64,000 nucleotides of DNA. It comes from Micromonospora sp. M71_S20. GTDB lineage: Bacteria > Actinomycetota > Actinomycetes > Mycobacteriales > Micromonosporaceae. The stretch lies in contig NZ_RCCV01000002.1 of NCBI RefSeq assembly GCF_003664255.1, positions 498,501-562,500 of the forward strand, read 5' to 3'. Position numbers and translations under genes: made by a program. The notes below the pieces were generated by a model. That model did no database searches. It was not told the DNA's origin and saw only the letters and a program-made list of their open reading frames with translations. Positions within the stretch are counted from its first letter, which is position 1. Each line of letters opens with the position of its first letter. Shown here in pieces: positions 56,020 to 64,000 of this stretch.

Positions 56020-57015
56020 TCAGGCGGTGCGGCGCTGACGCAGCCAGAGCACCGGGCCGCTGACCAGGTAACCGACCACGATCAGTGCGAAGGTGAGCCG
56101 GATGTCGATCAGCGCGCCGATCACCGGGGCCAGCCACAGCCACGGCGGCAGCTTCACCAGCCGCGCGAGCTTCGCGTAGGGGAAGCTGGAGACCATGGCG
56201 AAGGCGAGCAGCGCCACGCCGGCGACCTGGACGATGCCCGGCACGGGCAGCCCGATGGCGACGGTGAGGGCGAGCACGGCGGCGGCCATGGTGGTGGGCA
56301 CGCCGCAGAAGAACCTGCCGTCCTTCGGCGAGACGTTGAACCGGGCGAGCCGGATCGCCGCGCACGCCGCGACGAGGGCGCAGGCCACCGCTGCGGCCGG
56401 TGTGGAGACCGAACCGGCCAGCGAGGCGTAGACCACCACGGGGGCGGCCAGGCCGAACGAGCACATGTCGGCCAGCGAGTCCATCTGCGCGCCGAACGGG
56501 CTGGCCACGCCGAACTTGCGGGCGAGCGCGCCGTCGAGGCCGTCGAAGACGACGCAGGCGATCAGGCAGAGCGCGGCGACGCGCACCTCGCCCTGCATGG
56601 CCAGGAAGATGGCCAGCATGCCGAGCATCAGGCTGCTCAGTGTGCAGGCGTTGACCACCGCGAACTTCATCCGGCGGGCGACCGTCCGCTCGCCCGGAAG
56701 CAACGGGATCGACATCGCCGGATCGTCGTCCACCGGGGTCGTGGGGCCGAGCGCGGGGCTGACCGGGACGATCGAGGCGACGTCGGCGCGCTCGACCCTG
56801 GTGAGTCCGTAGCGGCGGCGCGGCCGGTCGGCGTAGCGGTGCTCGGGCATCGAGAGGTCGTTGGTCGCGTGCAGGTCACCGTCGCGGCGCCCCACCCGGA
56901 CCAGCAGCACCTGCCGGGCGAGCGTGCTGCTGCGGCGCAACGGGCCCGCCCAGCGACGCCCTGCGGGACGCGGACTGTCAGTCGTACGACGCCGGCGCCA
57001 TGGGGCTCTCGGCAC
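56020..57015 (-). CDS. pssA: CDP-diacylglycerol-serine O-phosphatidyltransferase with N-terminal extension
   Basis: Makes phosphatidylserine from CDP-diacylglycerol and serine in the membrane. The CDP-alcohol phosphotransferase motif DGxxARxxxxxxxxGxxxDxxxD is complete (DGLDGALARKFGVASPFGAQMDSLAD), within six to eight hydrophobic segments. GTG at 57015 is chosen because a GGAGG site lies five bases upstream, which gives 331 residues with an Arg-rich extension of about 110 residues before the enzyme proper. Shorter starts (ATG 56850, or ATG before SIPLLPGERTV) lack a ribosome site. The extension may be a cytoplasmic targeting segment. Confidence 0.85.
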   Translation of the reverse strand: MPRAPWRRRRTTDSPRPAGRRWAGPLRRSSTLARQVLLVRVGRRDGDLHATNDLSMPEHRYADRPRRRYGLTRVERADVASIVPVSPALGPTTPVDDDPAMSIPLLPGERTVARRMKFAVVNACTLSSLMLGMLAIFLAMQGEVRVAALCLIACVVFDGLDGALARKFGVASPFGAQMDSLADMCSFGLAAPVVVYASLAGSVSTPAAAVACALVAACAAIRLARFNVSPKDGRFFCGVPTTMAAAVLALTVAIGLPVPGIVQVAGVALLAFAMVSSFPYAKLARLVKLPPWLWLAPVIGALIDIRLTFALIVVGYLVSGPVLWLRQRRTA

Positions 57016-57302
57016 GTTTCCTCCATCACCGGATCGGTTTACCGCCGCGAGGGCGGGTGTCCGGCTGTCTCGTGCCGGACCTCTCTGGCCCGGCAGCCGT
57101 TTTGCGGAGTACACCATCGCATAGGGGAACGGGGGTTGGCGATAGCTGCCGGCGGTACTTATATCTGGTCTAACCGCGCGAACCGCTCTCTTATTCCCAT
57201 CTCGGGCTCCATCGCCCGTTTCCTCCACCAACCCCACCTCGAATGTACCGGACCCCGTCTCCACCGGCTCGGCGAGCGAGTGCCGGCGACACCGATGTCC
57301 GG

Positions 57303-58227
57303 TTACGGACGGTCGTCGGCGGGGGCCTTGGCCAGCGCCAGTGCGGCGATCCCGCTCAGCGGCAGCCCGGCGAGCTGCTCCGGCGTGAACCAGCCCGCGC
57401 GGGCCGTGGAGCCGCCGGCGAGCTCGGTCACCCGCGGCTCGGTGGGCGTGTCCACCGCCACCCGGTAGACCACCCGGATGCCGTGCCAGTCGAGCGGGCG
57501 CCCCTCCGGGCCCAGCGCGGCCGGGTTGTGCAGGTTGTCGACGCCGATCAGCTCGACCACCCGACCGAGCTGGCCGGACTCCTCGACCAGTTCACGCAGC
57601 AGCGCGGCGACCGGCTGCTCGCCGTGGTCGGTCCCGCCGCCCGGCAGGTGCCACCGGCCGGCGCCCGGGTAACCGTCGGCGATCATGGTGAGCAGCACCC
57701 GGCCGGCGGGGTCGGTGACCAGGCCGTACGCCCCGAAGCGCTGCCTCCGGTCGGGCGGGAGCGGGGCGACCGGCCCCTCCGTCGGAGAGCGGGGCAGATC
57801 CGGCGGCAGGGGCGACACGGGCAGGCCGAGCAGCTCGGCGGTGAACGGCATCAGCGGCACCGCCGCCGCCTCGGCGGTCGTGAACCACCCCAGCTCGTCG
57901 CTGCCGCCGGCCGGCTCCGGCCGGGGTTCGCCGCCCCGCACGACGACGTCGAAGACCACGCGGTCGGTGTGCACCGCGACGCTGGCGTCACGGAAGGTCG
58001 TCACGTCGGCGAACACCGCCCGCAGCCCGGTCACCTCGACCGTGAGGCCGGTCTCCTCGGCGAACTCGCGGACCACCGCGTGCGCCGGATGCTCGGCGTG
58101 CTCGACGCCGCCCCCGGGAATCTGCCAGACGCCCGGGACCGGACACGAACCCGAGCCGCGGACCAGCAACACCCGCCCGTCCGGGCCCCGAGACCCCGTA
58201 CGCGCCGACCCGCCGCCGTTGTTCCAC
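57303..58227 (-). pseudogene. Tandem-NUDIX hydrolase gene with an apparent 1-base frameshift
   Basis: Two NUDIX domains of about 150 residues each, paralogous to the next gene. The start expected by comparison is GTG 58227 (EQRRRVGAYGVS), but this frame breaks in a G-run at about 58186-58190; one extra base shifts it from GAYGVS to GPDGRVLLVRG, after which the rest is intact. Both NUDIX boxes are complete: GGVEHAEHPAHAVVREFAEETG and GGTDHGEQPVAALLRELVEESG. The frame of the intact part also stays open upstream to 58316, through a palindromic repeat, with no family resemblance. It may be a pseudogene, a sequencing error or, less likely, a frameshifted product. Substrates are probably nucleoside diphosphate derivatives. 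Confidence 0.7.
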
Positions 58228-58261
58228 CCGCCCGCACTCCCCCGCCCGCGCCGACCCGTTC

Positions 58262-58324
58262 CGTCGATCATGAGGTTAGTCGCAGCGGGTCCGGCGTGTC
58301 GCCCGGTCGACCTCATGATCGACG
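58262..58324. repeat. Intergenic palindromic repeat, copy C (variant)
   Basis: cgtcgatcatgaggt (58262-58276) is repeated in inverted form at 58310-58324, around a 33-base centre. It shares the outer cgtcgatcatg with copies A and B but has agg instead of cag inward, so it is a variant subfamily. It lies between the two NUDIX genes. Confidence 0.6.
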
Positions 58325-58356: not shown

Positions 58357-59304
58357 TCAGGCCAGGCGGGCGGCCTGGACGGCTTCCGCCGTCACCTCCG
58401 TCAGGCGGTCGGTGGGAAGGGCACCCAGCTCTTCGCGGCCGAACCAGCGGGCCTCGCAGGTGGAACCGCCGACGTCGGCGACGGTGGGCGGGGCCGGCTT
58501 GTCGACCACGACCCGGTAGAAGGCGCGGACGCCGTGCCAGTCGATCGGATAGCCCTCCGGGCCGAGGGAGGCCGCGTCCCGGTGGCTGGCCACGCCGAGC
58601 AGCTCGACGAGCCGGCCGGTCTGCCCGGTCTCCTCGACCAGCTCCCGGATCAGGGCGGCGCCGGGCTGCTCACCGTAGTCGGTGCCGCCGCCGGGCAGGT
58701 GCCAGCAGCCCGCGCCCGGGTAGCCGTCGGAGACCCGGGTGAGCAGCACCCGGTCGTCCGGGTCGGTCACCACGGCGTACGCGGCGAAGCGCTGGGCCCG
58801 GTGCAGCCCGTCGGGGCCGGGGACGGCATAGAACGAGGGGAACTCCGGCGCCTCGTCGGGAACGATGTCGGCGGACGAGGCGGGCAGGCCCAGGGCCCGC
58901 GCGGTGAACGACCGCAGCGGCAGCTCGCTGGCCTCCTCCGGGGTGAACCAGCGGGCCAGGTCGGTCGGCCGGTCGACCCGGTCGGCGAGCGTCCCGCCGC
59001 GCACCGACACCTGGTAGATCAGGCGGTCGGTGTGGATGGTGATGCCCCGCTCCGGCAGCGCCCGCATGTCGGCGAGCACGTCGTGCAGGCCCGCGACGGT
59101 GACGGAGAGGCCGGTCTCGGCGGCGGTCTCCCGGACGACGGTGTGGTGCGGGTCCTCACCGTGGTCGACCGCCCCACCGGGCAGCGACCACGTGCCGGGG
59201 GTGCCGGAGCGCTCCGATGCGCGGACCAGCAACACCCGGCCGACTGAGTCAGCACAAACTGCGTATGCCGCGATCCTGCGGAGCGGCTCCAGCATGGTGG
59301 TCAC
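58357..59304 (-). CDS. Tandem-NUDIX hydrolase
   Basis: A 315-residue protein with two NUDIX domains (about 10-135 and 165-300). The C-terminal box GGTDYGEQPGAALIRELVEETG is canonical. The N-terminal one reads GAVDHGEDPHHTVVRETAAETG, so the first Glu of the REXXEE core is Ala and that domain is probably impaired in metal binding. GTG at 59304 is chosen over a longer frame that lacks resemblance; ATG at 59295 is close. It is the intact paralogue of the neighbouring frameshifted gene. Substrate unknown. Confidence 0.87.
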   Translation of the reverse strand: MTTMLEPLRRIAAYAVCADSVGRVLLVRASERSGTPGTWSLPGGAVDHGEDPHHTVVRETAAETGLSVTVAGLHDVLADMRALPERGITIHTDRLIYQVSVRGGTLADRVDRPTDLARWFTPEEASELPLRSFTARALGLPASSADIVPDEAPEFPSFYAVPGPDGLHRAQRFAAYAVVTDPDDRVLLTRVSDGYPGAGCWHLPGGGTDYGEQPGAALIRELVEETGQTGRLVELLGVASHRDAASLGPEGYPIDWHGVRAFYRVVVDKPAPPTVADVGGSTCEARWFGREELGALPTDRLTEVTAEAVQAARLA

Positions 59305-59448
59305 GGGGCCAAATTCTCCCCGGCCCGGGTTACCTCCATCGAAAAGAGTCAGATTCCTGACTGAATGCTCGCGCCTCAGGGACGGGTCAGGGTAGGGATC
59401 CGGGCGGTCACCGAGGCCGGTCCGACGACCGGCGCGGACCGTGGAGAC

Positions 59449-59766
59449 ATGACCTACACCGCCCCTCCCCAGCCCCCGTACAAGCAGCTCCGTCGGCCCG
59501 TCACGGACCGGATGATCGCCGGTGTCGCCAGCGGCCTCGGCCGGTACTTCGCCGTCGACCCCACCCTGGTCCGGGTGGTCTTCGCCGTCGCCGGCCTGCT
59601 CACCGGCGGGCTCGCGCTGCTCGCGTACCCGATCATGTGGTTCCTGATGCCCGAGGAGCCGGCCGACGCCCCCGCCTGGCCGCACCCGGCGCAGGCCGCG
59701 CCGCCCACGGTGGCGCAGCCGACCGTGGCGCAGCCCACGCCGCCGACCTACCCGCCGGCGGCGTGA
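59449..59766 (+). CDS. Small PspC-domain membrane protein
   Basis: A 105-residue protein consisting of one PspC domain (residues 12-70: RPVTDRMIAGVASGLGRYFAVDPTLVRVVF, then GLALLAYPIMWFLMPEEP) and a Pro/Ala tail containing a repeated PTVAQ. ATG at 59449 follows GGAG. It is a second PspC protein, separate from the 50-54.5 kb module, and may be an independent envelope-stress component. Confidence 0.87.
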   Translation: MTYTAPPQPPYKQLRRPVTDRMIAGVASGLGRYFAVDPTLVRVVFAVAGLLTGGLALLAYPIMWFLMPEEPADAPAWPHPAQAAPPTVAQPTVAQPTPPTYPPAA

Positions 59767-59773
59767 GGCGGGA

Positions 59774-61327
<1,554 letters not shown>

Positions 61328-61461
61328 GGGAGCAAATCCTACCGACGGCGCCGCCGGGCCCCCCGCCGGTCCGCCCCCACGCCGCCGTCGCGGCGGAGGT
61401 GACGTCGGCCACCGTACGGACGGTCCGGCGCGCCACCGCCCTCCCGATGGGAGCCATTAGT

Positions 61462-61490
61462 CCTGTATGCGCTTTTTGACCTGTATACGG
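61462..61490 (+). promoter_or_regulatory. Direct repeats upstream of the rhodopsin gene
   Basis: cctgtat occurs at 61462-61468 and 61480-61486, each followed by n-cg, so the period is 18 bases; the second copy forms an extended -10-like TGTATAC. The spacing places both on one DNA face-pair, as expected for a regulator site. This AT-richer patch stands out from its surroundings and lies about 135 bases before the gene. Confidence 0.4.
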
Positions 61491-61621
61491 TGTCCGTACC
61501 GCCCGCCACCGGCTCACGCACGGGACTCCGACGGGTTCGGACGGTGCCCGGCCGTACGCCCGGGTCGTCAACAGCGGCAGCCGGCGGGCGCGGGGCGTCG
61601 GGAGTCGGCCGGGGGGTGGGC

Positions 61622-62320
61622 ATGACCGAGTGGTGGCTGTGGATGTACGTCGCCGCCATGGCGGGCGGGGTCGTGCTGTTCAGCCGGTGGAGCGCGGATC
61701 CGCGGGGCGTTCCCCGCAGCGAGTACCGGGTGGCGATCGCCATCCCGCTCTGGTCCGGCTTCTGGTACCTGATCCTGGCACTGGGCGCCGGCACTGCGGA
61801 GGTGGCCGGCCACACGCTCTACTGGGCGCGGTACGTCGACTGGGCGGTCTCCTCGCCCCTGTTGCTGGTGGCGCTGATGCTGACCGCGACGCACTCGCTG
61901 CCCGGACGCTGTTGGGGACTGACGGGCGCCCTCGTCGGGGCGAACCTGGTGGTCTTTCTCTGCGGGCTGGCCGCCGAACTCGCGGCGAACGACACGATCC
62001 GCTACACCCTCTTCACGATCGGGGTCCTGGCCCTCCTCGGGCTCTACGGCCTGATCTGGGGACCGCTACGCGCCCACGCGCACCGTCAGCCGGAAGGGAT
62101 CGCGGCGGTGTACACGGAGGCGGCCCTGCTGCTCAGCGTGCTCTGGGTGGGCTACCCCGTGTTCTGGATGATCGGCCCAGCCGGTGTCGGCCTCGTCAGT
62201 TCCGCCACCACCAGCCTGCTCTTCGTCCTGCTGTCCATCCTGACGAAGGTGGGCTGGAGCATCCTCGATCTCGGCCGGCTGCGCGCCCTGTCCGCCCGTG
62301 ATCAGCTCACCGTCGTCTGA
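61622..62320 (+). CDS. Microbial rhodopsin, xenorhodopsin/Anabaena sensory rhodopsin type
   Basis: A 232-residue seven-helix retinal protein. Helix C reads RYVDWAVSSPLLLVA, so the bacteriorhodopsin D85/T89/D96 positions are Asp73, Ser77 and Ala84. Helix F carries WVGYPVFWMIGP, and helix G holds the Schiff-base Lys209 in SILTKVGWSILDL. As I recall it, the Anabaena sensory rhodopsin sequence matches throughout (DPRGVP after helix A, IPLWSG in helix B, KVG-S-LDL at the end). The position of bacteriorhodopsin D212, Pro in that sensor, is Ser205 here. Relatives are sensors or inward proton pumps; no transducer gene follows. It overlaps the Blh gene by 23 bases if GTG 62298 is used. Confidence 0.92.
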   Translation: MTEWWLWMYVAAMAGGVVLFSRWSADPRGVPRSEYRVAIAIPLWSGFWYLILALGAGTAEVAGHTLYWARYVDWAVSSPLLLVALMLTATHSLPGRCWGLTGALVGANLVVFLCGLAAELAANDTIRYTLFTIGVLALLGLYGLIWGPLRAHAHRQPEGIAAVYTEAALLLSVLWVGYPVFWMIGPAGVGLVSSATTSLLFVLLSILTKVGWSILDLGRLRALSARDQLTVV

Positions 62321-63407
62321 CCCGGTGTCCGGGTCCGGCCCCCGGGTGCCGGTGTCGGACGACCGGGCGTCCGCCCGGACCCGACGACCGCCGGCGGGCG
62401 CGGCGGAGGGCCCGGGGCGGCGGGACCGGCTGCTGCGGCGCGTCGGCACGGCGACGCAGCTCGCCCTCGGCGGGCTGCTGGCGTGGTCCCCGCTGATCGA
62501 CGCCGCCGGGCCGGGCGGCTCGCCGGCCTTCCTGGTCGCGGGACTGCTCCTCGGGCTCCCGCACGGCGCGGTCGACCATCTCGTGCCCGCCCGGCTGTCG
62601 GCGCGCGCCCGGCCGCTGTCGGCGCGGGTGGCGCTGCTGGCGGCCTACGCCGCCGTGGCCGGCGCCGGGCTGACGGTCTTCCGGGCCGCGCCGGACCTGG
62701 CGCTGGTCGGGTTCCTCATCGTGTCGGTCGTGCACTTCGGCACCGCCGACGTGGCGTTCCACGCCGAGCGGGACCGCCGGCCGGCCCGGCCGGGGGTGAC
62801 GGCCGTGCTCGCGTACGGGGGACCGCCGGTGGTCGTCCCGTTGGCGCTGTGGCGGGAGCAGGTCGACCCGTTGCTGGCGGCGGTGGCCCCGCAGGCACCG
62901 GCGCTGCTCACCGACGAGGTGCGGGCGCTGGCACTGGCCACGGTCCTGTGCGCGGTCGCGGCCACCGCGATCCGGGACGTGCGAGCGGGACGCGCCCGCG
63001 ACGCCGTCCCACCGGTCCTGCTCGTCGGACTGTTCGGCACCGTGCCGCCGGCCCTGGCCGTCGGGGCGTACTTCGCGGTCTGGCACTCCTGCCGCCACGT
63101 CGCCCGGCTGCTGCGGCACGACCCGCGGAACACGGCCGACCTGGCGGCCGGACGGGTCGGACCGCCGCTGCGTCGCTTCGCCCGGCAGGCGGCGGCTCCC
63201 ACGGCGGTCGCGCTCGCCGCCCTGCTCGCCCTGGTCACCTGGCCCGGCCACCGGGCGGACCCGCTGCCCGCGACGTTCGCCGTGCTGGCCGCGCTGACCC
63301 TCCCGCACGCGGTGCTGGTCGCCTGGGCGGACCGACGCGGGCCCGGGCCCTCACGCCGGGCGGGTGACGGGCTGCTCCCCCGCCGGGGTGCCCGGCGCCG
63401 CGGTTGA
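62298..63407 (+). CDS. blh: Brp/Blh-family beta-carotene 15,15'-dioxygenase
   Basis: Cleaves beta-carotene to two retinal molecules, the chromophore of the rhodopsin encoded just upstream. The polytopic protein of up to 369 residues has the expected iron-binding His residues: His89 in GLPHGAVDH, His146 in VVHFG, and His263 and His267 in VWHSCRHVARL. The first 45 residues from GTG 62298 are Pro/Arg-rich and look non-conserved, so GTG 62325 or a later start is possible. No carotenoid genes are in the window, so beta-carotene must be made elsewhere. Confidence 0.9.
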   Translation: MISSPSSDPVSGSGPRVPVSDDRASARTRRPPAGAAEGPGRRDRLLRRVGTATQLALGGLLAWSPLIDAAGPGGSPAFLVAGLLLGLPHGAVDHLVPARLSARARPLSARVALLAAYAAVAGAGLTVFRAAPDLALVGFLIVSVVHFGTADVAFHAERDRRPARPGVTAVLAYGGPPVVVPLALWREQVDPLLAAVAPQAPALLTDEVRALALATVLCAVAATAIRDVRAGRARDAVPPVLLVGLFGTVPPALAVGAYFAVWHSCRHVARLLRHDPRNTADLAAGRVGPPLRRFARQAAAPTAVALAALLALVTWPGHRADPLPATFAVLAALTLPHAVLVAWADRRGPGPSRRAGDGLLPRRGARRRG

Positions 63408-63451: not shown

Positions 63452-64000
63452 TCACCACCGCAGGGCACCGGGGGCGTCGGCCGGGACCGCCGGGAGGCGG
63501 GGTGCCACCGGCGCCAACCGGCGGTACGGCGCACCGAGCGGCGGCCTCGGGTCCACGTCGCCCTTGTTGGGCCAGAAGGACATCGCGCGTTCCGCCTGGG
63601 CGGTGATGGTCAACGACGGGTTCACCCCGAGGTTCGCCGAGACCGCCGCGCCGTCCACCACGTGCAGCCCCGGGTGGCCGAACACCCGGTGCCACGGGTC
63701 GATCACACCGTCGGTCGGGGTGGCGCCGATCACCGCTCCGCCGAGGATGTGTGCGGTCATCGGAATGTCGAACGGCTCGGTCAGGGCGCCGCCGGGCGTA
63801 CCGCCGATCTCCTCGGCCAGCAGGCGGGCCGCCTGGTTGCCGGCCGGGATCCAGGTCGGGTTGGGCGCGCCGTGACCCGGCCCGGAGACCAGGTGGCGGC
63901 CGAACGGGCCGCGTCGCAGCCGGGTGGTCAGCGAGTTGTCCACCGACTGCATGACCAGGGCGATCACCGTCCGCTCCGACCAGCCGCGCACCGACAGCAG
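63452..64000 (-). CDS. GMC oxidoreductase, cholesterol-oxidase-like (C-terminal part; start outside window)
   Basis: The last 180 or so residues of an FAD-dependent GMC-type oxidase or dehydrogenase; the frame is open to the right edge. HILGGAVIGATPTDGVIDPWHRVFGHPGLHVVDGAA followed by NLGVNPSLTITAQAERAM is the conserved C-terminal domain of the ChoD-like cholesterol oxidase group, including the active-site His and Asn. In mycobacteria and relatives a ChoD-like gene lies near guaA and guaB; here the rhodopsin-blh pair sits on the opposite strand between it and guaA. The substrate is not necessarily a sterol. Confidence 0.88.
   Translation of the reverse strand: MLSVRGWSERTVIALVMQSVDNSLTTRLRRGPFGRHLVSGPGHGAPNPTWIPAGNQAARLLAEEIGGTPGGALTEPFDIPMTAHILGGAVIGATPTDGVIDPWHRVFGHPGLHVVDGAAVSANLGVNPSLTITAQAERAMSFWPNKGDVDPRPPLGAPYRRLAPVAPRLPAVPADAPGALRW

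Follow-up and report, generated by a model that had tools for sequence, protein, structure and literature searches.

The described systems closest to the rhodopsin studied here are Anabaena sensory rhodopsin (ASR) and two inward proton pumps, PoXeR and BcXeR, the latter represented by the structure 7zmy, which we take to be the xenorhodopsin of Bacillus coahuilensis. In the accessible passages of PMC3198991 (Ugalde 2011), ASR has a transducer gene in its operon, and a proline at the position of BR Asp212 is proposed as a useful diagnostic of xenorhodopsins. This helix-G proline has been used to explain inward proton movement. In PMC5118547, D216 is the primary proton acceptor of PoXeR, with E35 in a tuning role, and the cytoplasmic, i.e. 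inward, release is explained by there being just one negative charge close to the Schiff base. The same paper describes that PoXeR mutants at E35, D74, D108 and D216, including D108N, pump much less and that D216E pumps more.

Other work concerns the pocket around the retinal. Excerpts of PMC3267196 give Gln in ASR and Asn in ppR at the BR 115 site, both thus without Asp; two of its passages name Gln109 as the ASR counterpart of BR Asp115 and another names Asn105, and our alignment as well as PoXeR D108 match Gln109. The excerpts also describe that changing Pro206 of ASR to Asp gave no BR-like pump; we take single-residue effects in this pocket to be hard to predict. In BR, the available text of PMC3411786 gives about 10% of wild-type transport and slower M decay for T90A, and an altered photocycle with no evident structural effect for D115A. 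The residue pair at BR 90/115 is also treated in a partial passage of PMC7659345, and the accessible part of PMC7704677 is a further source.

For Micromonospora, the passages available from PMC10743670 and PMC5531490 name only the sodium-pump rhodopsin of CNB394, which was expressed (PMC5531490) and had small photocurrents. In our search of titles and abstract beginnings, with subscription papers mostly outside it, no description of a Micromonospora xenorhodopsin or of a clade with Ser in place of Pro was found. The rhodopsin described in the following therefore appears to be an undescribed variant of the known xenorhodopsin lineage.

A rhodopsin gene overlapping blh

We analysed a stretch of 64,000 nucleotides, which as a whole is called the window. 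Its rhodopsin gene (61622..62320, + strand, ATG start) encodes 232 amino acids and overlaps by 23 nt with blh (62298..63407, + strand), a gene for a Brp/Blh-family beta-carotene 15,15'-dioxygenase of 369 amino acids whose GTG start lies inside the rhodopsin gene. The initial annotation had described two adjacent genes for a seven-helix retinal protein and its retinal-forming enzyme, and this description holds. Bac_rhodopsin (PF01036) is the single Pfam family matched by the protein (145.9 bits, cut-off 24.6), and the AlphaFold2 model consists of seven long helices with a mean pLDDT of 94.3. Together with the helix-G lysine K209 (codon 62246..62248, +), the retinal Schiff-base lysine in the alignment, this places the protein in the type-1 microbial rhodopsins. 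A profile search of the 7.8 Mb genome gave this one PF01036 match in total.

The protein search was limited to scoring the 7997 candidates with most words in common; among these, 59 proteins reached E <= 0.001 and the closest were Micromonospora entries named 'bacteriorhodopsin', with a top identity of 88%. The host is on this basis evidently a Micromonospora. The solved structures closest by sequence were ASR (178 bits) and then the xenorhodopsin 7zmy (160 bits). By fold, BcXeR was closest to the model (TM 0.93, rmsd 1.1) and ASR was second.

Several functional residues could be identified by alignment, with all codons on the + strand. D73 (61838..61840) takes the counterion position of the Schiff base (BR D85). 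E34 (61721..61723) corresponds to PoXeR E35 and ASR E36 as the cytoplasmic partner of D216 (62267..62269), which is equivalent to PoXeR D216 and ASR D217 and, by analogy with PoXeR, would be the cytoplasmic proton acceptor. With R70 also present, E34, R70, D73, K209 and D216 are all retained in the Micromonospora rhodopsin, and the equivalents of D73, K209 and D216 are invariant in all 61 rows of the S-type described below.

In the case of blh, both the Pfam profile PF15461 (BCD, 174.6 bits) and the NCBIfam profile TIGR03753 (177 bits) are matched over their cut-offs, and these matches together with conserved histidines assign it to the Brp/Blh family. For rhodopsin and blh alike, chance is excluded by the profile scores. 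The enzyme call made earlier thus stands and its count of four expected His ligands does not, since six histidines are invariant: H94, H146, H263, H267 and H337 in 26 of 26 aligned sequences, and H89 in the 24 covering that position. With its profile matches and invariant histidines blh resembles the Brp/Blh dioxygenases of TIGR03753 and differs from them by its overlap with the rhodopsin gene, with otherwise nothing notable. Within the genus, blh is present in 24/24 genomes with a full-length rhodopsin as compared to 1/136 without one (G298).

A search for carotenoid genes had been proposed, and carotenoid-type genes were found elsewhere in the genome. At 2.36 Mb of contig C1, a polyprenyl synthase gene adjoins two of them. 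One is a phytoene desaturase gene of the CrtI family, which is over the cut-off of TIGR02734 with 510 bits; the other is of the phytoene/squalene synthase family (PF00494, 252 bits), and its best NCBIfam models, of the HpnD and CrtB types, stay under their cut-offs. A lycopene-cyclase-family gene at C1:4.24 Mb is over the cut-off of PF05834 (236 bits) and under that of TIGR01790 (91.5 bits, cut-off 209.5). Judging from these genes, a beta-carotene pathway is plausible.

Comparison of upstream regions pointed to a putative promoter at 61470..61493 (+), consisting of a T-run followed by TGTATACGGTGT. This element also precedes the rhodopsin gene in G294, G327 and, in a less exact form, G309, and its exact 12-mer has a single occurrence in the 64-kb window. 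A sigma-70 consensus was not found in the upstream region of the rhodopsin gene, and TGTATA/TATACA, a candidate motif linking the rhodopsin promoter to the carotenoid genes, was absent from both carotenoid loci. A foreign base composition was also considered and set aside, as GC values of 0.697 for rhodopsin, 0.800 for blh and 0.728 for the window yield no clear signal.

Placement in the xenorhodopsin lineage

To place the protein, a tree of 115 rows was calculated with the C20 mixture, position 206 being omitted. Fragments (P0060, P0061, L109, L134), loci with a split match or one below 550 nt (L131, L132, L133, L135, L136, L138, L139), Micromonospora genome duplicates (L066-L071 and the named sodium-pump copies) and rows at least 92% identical to a kept row were omitted, and four sodium-pump rows were kept; minus the outgroups this gives 106 representatives. 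Counts on the alignment of 153 rows still include duplicates. The contig scan used a single peptide pattern containing ARYxDW and 80 of 98 confirmed loci were kept, the sample being confined to xenorhodopsins that bear ARYxDW, with the NsXeR type falling outside. A class-wide search of 394 genomes at E <= 1e-15 gave, beyond the window, 10 weak partial matches of 57-59 bits, all in family f28.

In this tree the protein is nested in a lineage that comprises ASR, BcXeR, Hymenobacter, cyanobacteria and the Parvularcula oceani row L075, which on the basis of its organism we take to be PoXeR. The assignment to the ASR/xenorhodopsin clade, made before from the sequence, is borne out by phylogenetic placement and fold, which agree. 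The protein belongs to a group of its own with 49 rows of actinobacterial and unassigned metagenomic proteins (support 100/100). Inside this group, a clade of 38 rows (100/93) unites the window protein, other Micromonospora, Plantactinospora and their relatives. The whole xenorhodopsin-class branch is less firm (94/93), and the deeper order is weakly supported.

Regarding the features of the xenorhodopsin class, the protein groups with ASR and other xenorhodopsins and has Asp at BR 85 (D73) and no acidic donor at the position of BR Asp96 (A84). The diagnostic proline at the BR Asp212 position is replaced by S205 (62234..62236, +; ASR 206), and for this reason we file the protein as a derived S-type subclade and not as a canonical xenorhodopsin. 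The helix-G serine is regarded as derived because every row outside the 38-row clade has proline, except the metagenomic P0040.

Three changed positions in the chromophore pocket

The serine is accompanied by changes at two further pocket positions, S78 (61853..61855, +), which corresponds to BR T90 and ASR T80, and N108 (61943..61945, +), which corresponds to BR D115, ASR Q109 and PoXeR D108. Over the 153 aligned rows, duplicates included, BR 212 is occupied by Pro in 90, Ser in 60 and Thr in 1, with 2 gaps, and Thr is found at the S78-equivalent position in 89/89 aligned proline-type rows. Among the 106 representatives, the three positions BR 90/115/212 (ASR 80/109/206) read T-D-P in 40 and T-Q-P in 27 of the 67 proline-type rows. 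All three are altered in each of the 38 S-clade representatives, where A-N-S (21) and S-N-S (8, with the window among them) are followed by A-T-S (3) and the rarer A-S-S (2), V-G-S (2), A-S-T (1) and A-Y-S (1).

When the three pocket columns were removed, the 38 rows still formed a clade in the tree of the 106 representatives (96/81). On that tree the minimum number of changes is one for BR 90, two for BR 212, the second being P0040, and three for Asn as against other residues at BR 115. Thr90, Asp/Gln115 and Pro212 were thus lost on or near a single branch, with later variation of the new residue at 115. Such a natural, well-supported clade without the proline and two further pocket residues is a ready-made test of the determinants of direction, speed and pumping. 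P0040, outside the S clade, reads T-D-S, an independent change of Pro to Ser at BR 212 with Thr90 and Asp115 retained, and is useful as a natural single substitution at that position.

Compared to the described pumps, the window protein shares with PoXeR the lineage, 47% identity and the equivalents of E35, D74 and D216, whereas the pocket positions S78, N108 and S205 of the window are T, D and P in L075. In the case of BcXeR, 41% identity and the helix-C residues D-S-A are common to both proteins; the differences are again T, D and P in the pocket and a Glu where the window has T197. With ASR, its top sequence match in the PDB, the window protein has in common the E36, D75 and D217 equivalents and a non-acidic residue at BR 115, whereas ASR has Pro206 and Thr80.

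Variation within the S-type was also seen. Six sister S-type rhodopsins, each adjoining blh, form an unusual branch within Micromonosporaceae: L042 (G289), L043 (G150), L044 (G237), L045 (G078), L046 (G093) and L047 (G121). In this branch BR Arg82 is changed to His (Tyr in G093), Met stands just before the retinal Lys, and the E36 equivalent is lost in the copies of G078, G093 and G121. In L155 (G344) and P0023, also S-type, BR Arg82 is replaced by Gln, and this rhodopsin adjoins an intact sodium-pump gene.

An islet that has lost a sodium pump

According to profile matches, the two genes are bordered on the left by guaA (59774..61327, -) and on the right by a GMC/ChoD-like oxidoreductase gene (63452..64000, -, of which the 3' part is in the window), and they lie on the opposite strand to both, as had been pointed out. 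The surroundings of guaA comprise two adjoining genes with two NUDIX domains each, apparently a tandem duplication (57303-58316 and 58357-59685, both -), as well as a PspC-domain protein (59365-59766, +) and a CDP-alcohol phosphatidyltransferase (56020-57264, -).

The locus was compared across 160 genomes of the genus, with rhodopsins called at the Pfam PF01036 cut-off. By this threshold 24/160 genomes have a rhodopsin, partial matches of 20.7-21.8 bits in G296, G264 and G221 being below it and excluded. A xenorhodopsin-type gene is present in 23 of the 24 (19 S-type; four proline-type, in G217, G168, G321 and G341), and in 17/23 it lies between guaA and the ChoD-like gene. Out of the 136 rhodopsin-free genomes, 19 were tested at this site and one ended at a contig edge; guaA adjoins choD in all 18 assessable ones, with a gap between the matches of 70-264 bp in 17 and of 620 bp in one. 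Where rhodopsins lie elsewhere (seven genomes), guaA still adjoins choD in G150, G289, G321 and G168, no choD is in reach in G237 and G346, and G341 is at a contig edge. The suggestion of an inserted islet is thereby supported. Across the 17 genomes with the gene at this site, xenorhodopsin distance tracks guaA distance (Mantel rho 0.46, 0/2000 permutations); inheritance looks only partly vertical because nearest neighbours often differ despite this correlation.

A second rhodopsin belongs to the picture. A sodium pump with the NDQ motif is found in 17/24 rhodopsin-bearing genomes of the genus, 16 of which have both rhodopsins. In 14/16 the sodium pump and the xenorhodopsin-type gene are divergent neighbours; they lie apart in G217 and G317. 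The divergent pair also exists in the proline-type genomes G168, G321 and G341, which makes the pairing independent of the pocket change. A second arrangement, at a site that does not adjoin guaA, was seen in L032 (G217), L153 (G317) and L156 (G346), where the sodium pump is divergent from a blh that is less closely related (about 44% identity).

In the PF01036 search, the site gene has no second rhodopsin in the window's genome, G294, G309 and G327. The window retains a relic of the 3' end of the sodium-pump gene (61396..61441, -), recognised by 46 nt that match the intact gene of G342 without gaps. The aligned reading includes the segment TVADVTS, which in the intact sodium pump precedes the retinal lysine. 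The Smith-Waterman score of the match is 42, as compared to a mean of 22.7 and a maximum of 33 for shuffles, of which 0/200 reached 42; against a second intact copy, in G223, the score is 34 and 1/200 shuffles reached it. The remainder of the sodium-pump gene was not found in the window beyond the relic. Since tblastn alone gives a weak match to the sodium pump in the gap (E about 0.03), the call rests on the DNA shuffle test and on longer relics in the same place. G294 has a sodium-pump C-terminus of 52 residues between guaA and the rhodopsin gene (best E about 5e-9), G298 has 28 sodium-pump residues, both in the same place and on the same strand as in the window, and G327 has the same relic as the window, slightly longer; none was detectable at the site of G309. 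In relatives, the partner gene of the locus is of the same kind as the described Micromonospora NDQ sodium pump, which differs from the window rhodopsin in belonging to another rhodopsin clade with helix-C N/D/Q and helix-G DxxxK.

The initial annotation saw in the two genes a minimal light-responsive unit and overlooked the divergent sodium-pump rhodopsin that the islet once held, as relatives show. The two-gene unit is instead a product of loss, and from the sequence comparison it is best read as the remainder of a three-gene islet. Another stage of islet decay is G298, a genome without any rhodopsin match, where an orphan blh and the relic of the sodium pump remain at locus L180 between guaA and choD. 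The pair and its decay here offer a natural comparison for light systems in filamentous spore-formers.

Proposed function

Beyond the gene content, pocket residues, phylogeny and islet history established above, we consider the protein most likely a slow ASR-like photoreceptor or a weak inward proton mover and not a robust pump. The reading we prefer, with about an even chance, is that rhodopsin and blh provide a retinal protein and its chromophore, with a slow cycle, weak net inward H+ transport and mainly an ASR-like photoreceptor role. beta-Carotene made by the carotenoid genes elsewhere in the genome would be cleaved by Blh to retinal, which would bind K209. The protein descends from proline-type xenorhodopsins and is a member of the derived S-type subclade, whose pocket is rebuilt (S78, N108, S205 in the window). 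Light would isomerise the retinal. Because Ser at BR 212 leaves D73 as the sole acidic classical counterion, the Schiff-base proton would most likely move to the cytoplasmic side, where E34 and D216 lie, in the same way as in ASR and PoXeR. Since Asn108 makes the protein a natural equivalent of PoXeR D108N and the Thr90-Asp115 pair of BR is gone, the photocycle may be expected to be slow and net inward transport to be weak; Ser at BR 90 is a milder change than Ala. Channelrhodopsin mutants at the equivalents of BR 90/115 show slow, step-function behaviour. The protein could then act mainly as a photoreceptor, or as a light-driven pH signal, with a putative partner.

As to that partner, the statement that no transducer gene adjoins the rhodopsin is correct: an ASRT gene was looked for at the locus and none was found there, a difference from the ASR operon. 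The sole PF07100 (ASRT-family) match in the genome lies on another contig (C1:3797889), and over the 160 genus genomes ASRT showed no association with rhodopsin (9/23 compared to 45/137, p = 0.64). ASR-ASRT coupling was rejected on these two grounds. In the proline-type genomes G168, G321 and G341, the ASRT and rhodopsin genes share a contig and are about 29-48 kb apart.

A robust light-driven inward pump like PoXeR or BcXeR, in which Ser at 212 preserves the logic of a single counterion and the altered pocket tunes no more than colour, is in our estimate doubtful. It would imply that the ancestral pair with an outward sodium pump worked as a light-driven Na+/H+ exchange of which this strain kept the H+ arm, and the divergent neighbourhood in 14 of the 16 genomes with both rhodopsins fits this, as do the fold closest to BcXeR, the retained E34, D73 and D216 and the likewise neutral residue of PoXeR (L075) at the ASR D198 position. 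Pumping is conceivable since the inward pump BcXeR has the same D-S-A helix-C residues. The D108 equivalent, needed for full PoXeR pumping, is however Asn, and D108N pumps poorly in the passages available from PMC5118547; Ser at BR 90 also speaks against a robust pump, as does the fact that the strain lost its sodium pump, yet this gene stayed intact. The earlier view that pumping was as likely as sensing is therefore retained only in part: with the diagnostic proline missing and Asn at the PoXeR D108 position, it rated the chance of robust inward pumping too high.

The TM7 SxxxK of the protein is given as a heliorhodopsin motif in the accessible part of PMC9601134, which suggests a heliorhodopsin-like non-pump acting on a partner protein. 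This is very improbable, as Pfam matches Bac_rhodopsin only and tree and fold group the protein with xenorhodopsins; heliorhodopsin descent was rejected on all three counts. A PF18761 search of the own genome gave no match, in a setting where the control gave no signal either.

Selection on the islet genes

Omega values were calculated by the Nei-Gojobori method for eight genomes (28 pairs per gene, six for the sodium pump). The medians were 0.47 for rhodopsin and 0.51 for blh, as compared to 0.13 for guaA, 0.18 for choD and 0.16 for the sodium pump. Rhodopsin and blh thus diverge much faster than the neighbour genes, with functional residues unchanged. We read these values as weak purifying selection on both genes, which would count somewhat against an important role, and part of the pocket change could be relaxed constraint because the rhodopsin gene evolves fast.

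We judge it improbable that the rhodopsin gene has been weakly selected or decaying ever since the sodium pump disappeared and has little function today. The high omega values and G298, which retains just blh and the relic, would suit such a course; the intact frame with retained functional residues does not, nor does the lack of internal stops, which applies to the matches of all 23 copies in the genus. Omega is moreover below 1 in 28/28 pairs (0.26-0.74), and copies adjoining an intact sodium pump evolve equally fast (G342 to G307, 0.39).

Rather tentatively, and short of an even chance, the S-type may form a functionally distinct class of xenorhodopsins. A single coordinated switch in the helix C/D/G pocket (BR 90/115/212) would then have converted an inward proton pump, which in this genus often has a sodium pump as its partner, to a light receptor with slow or bistable behaviour. 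Here the receptor would have outlived the sodium pump, and the sister branch, with BR Arg82 exchanged for His or Tyr, would have gone one step further.
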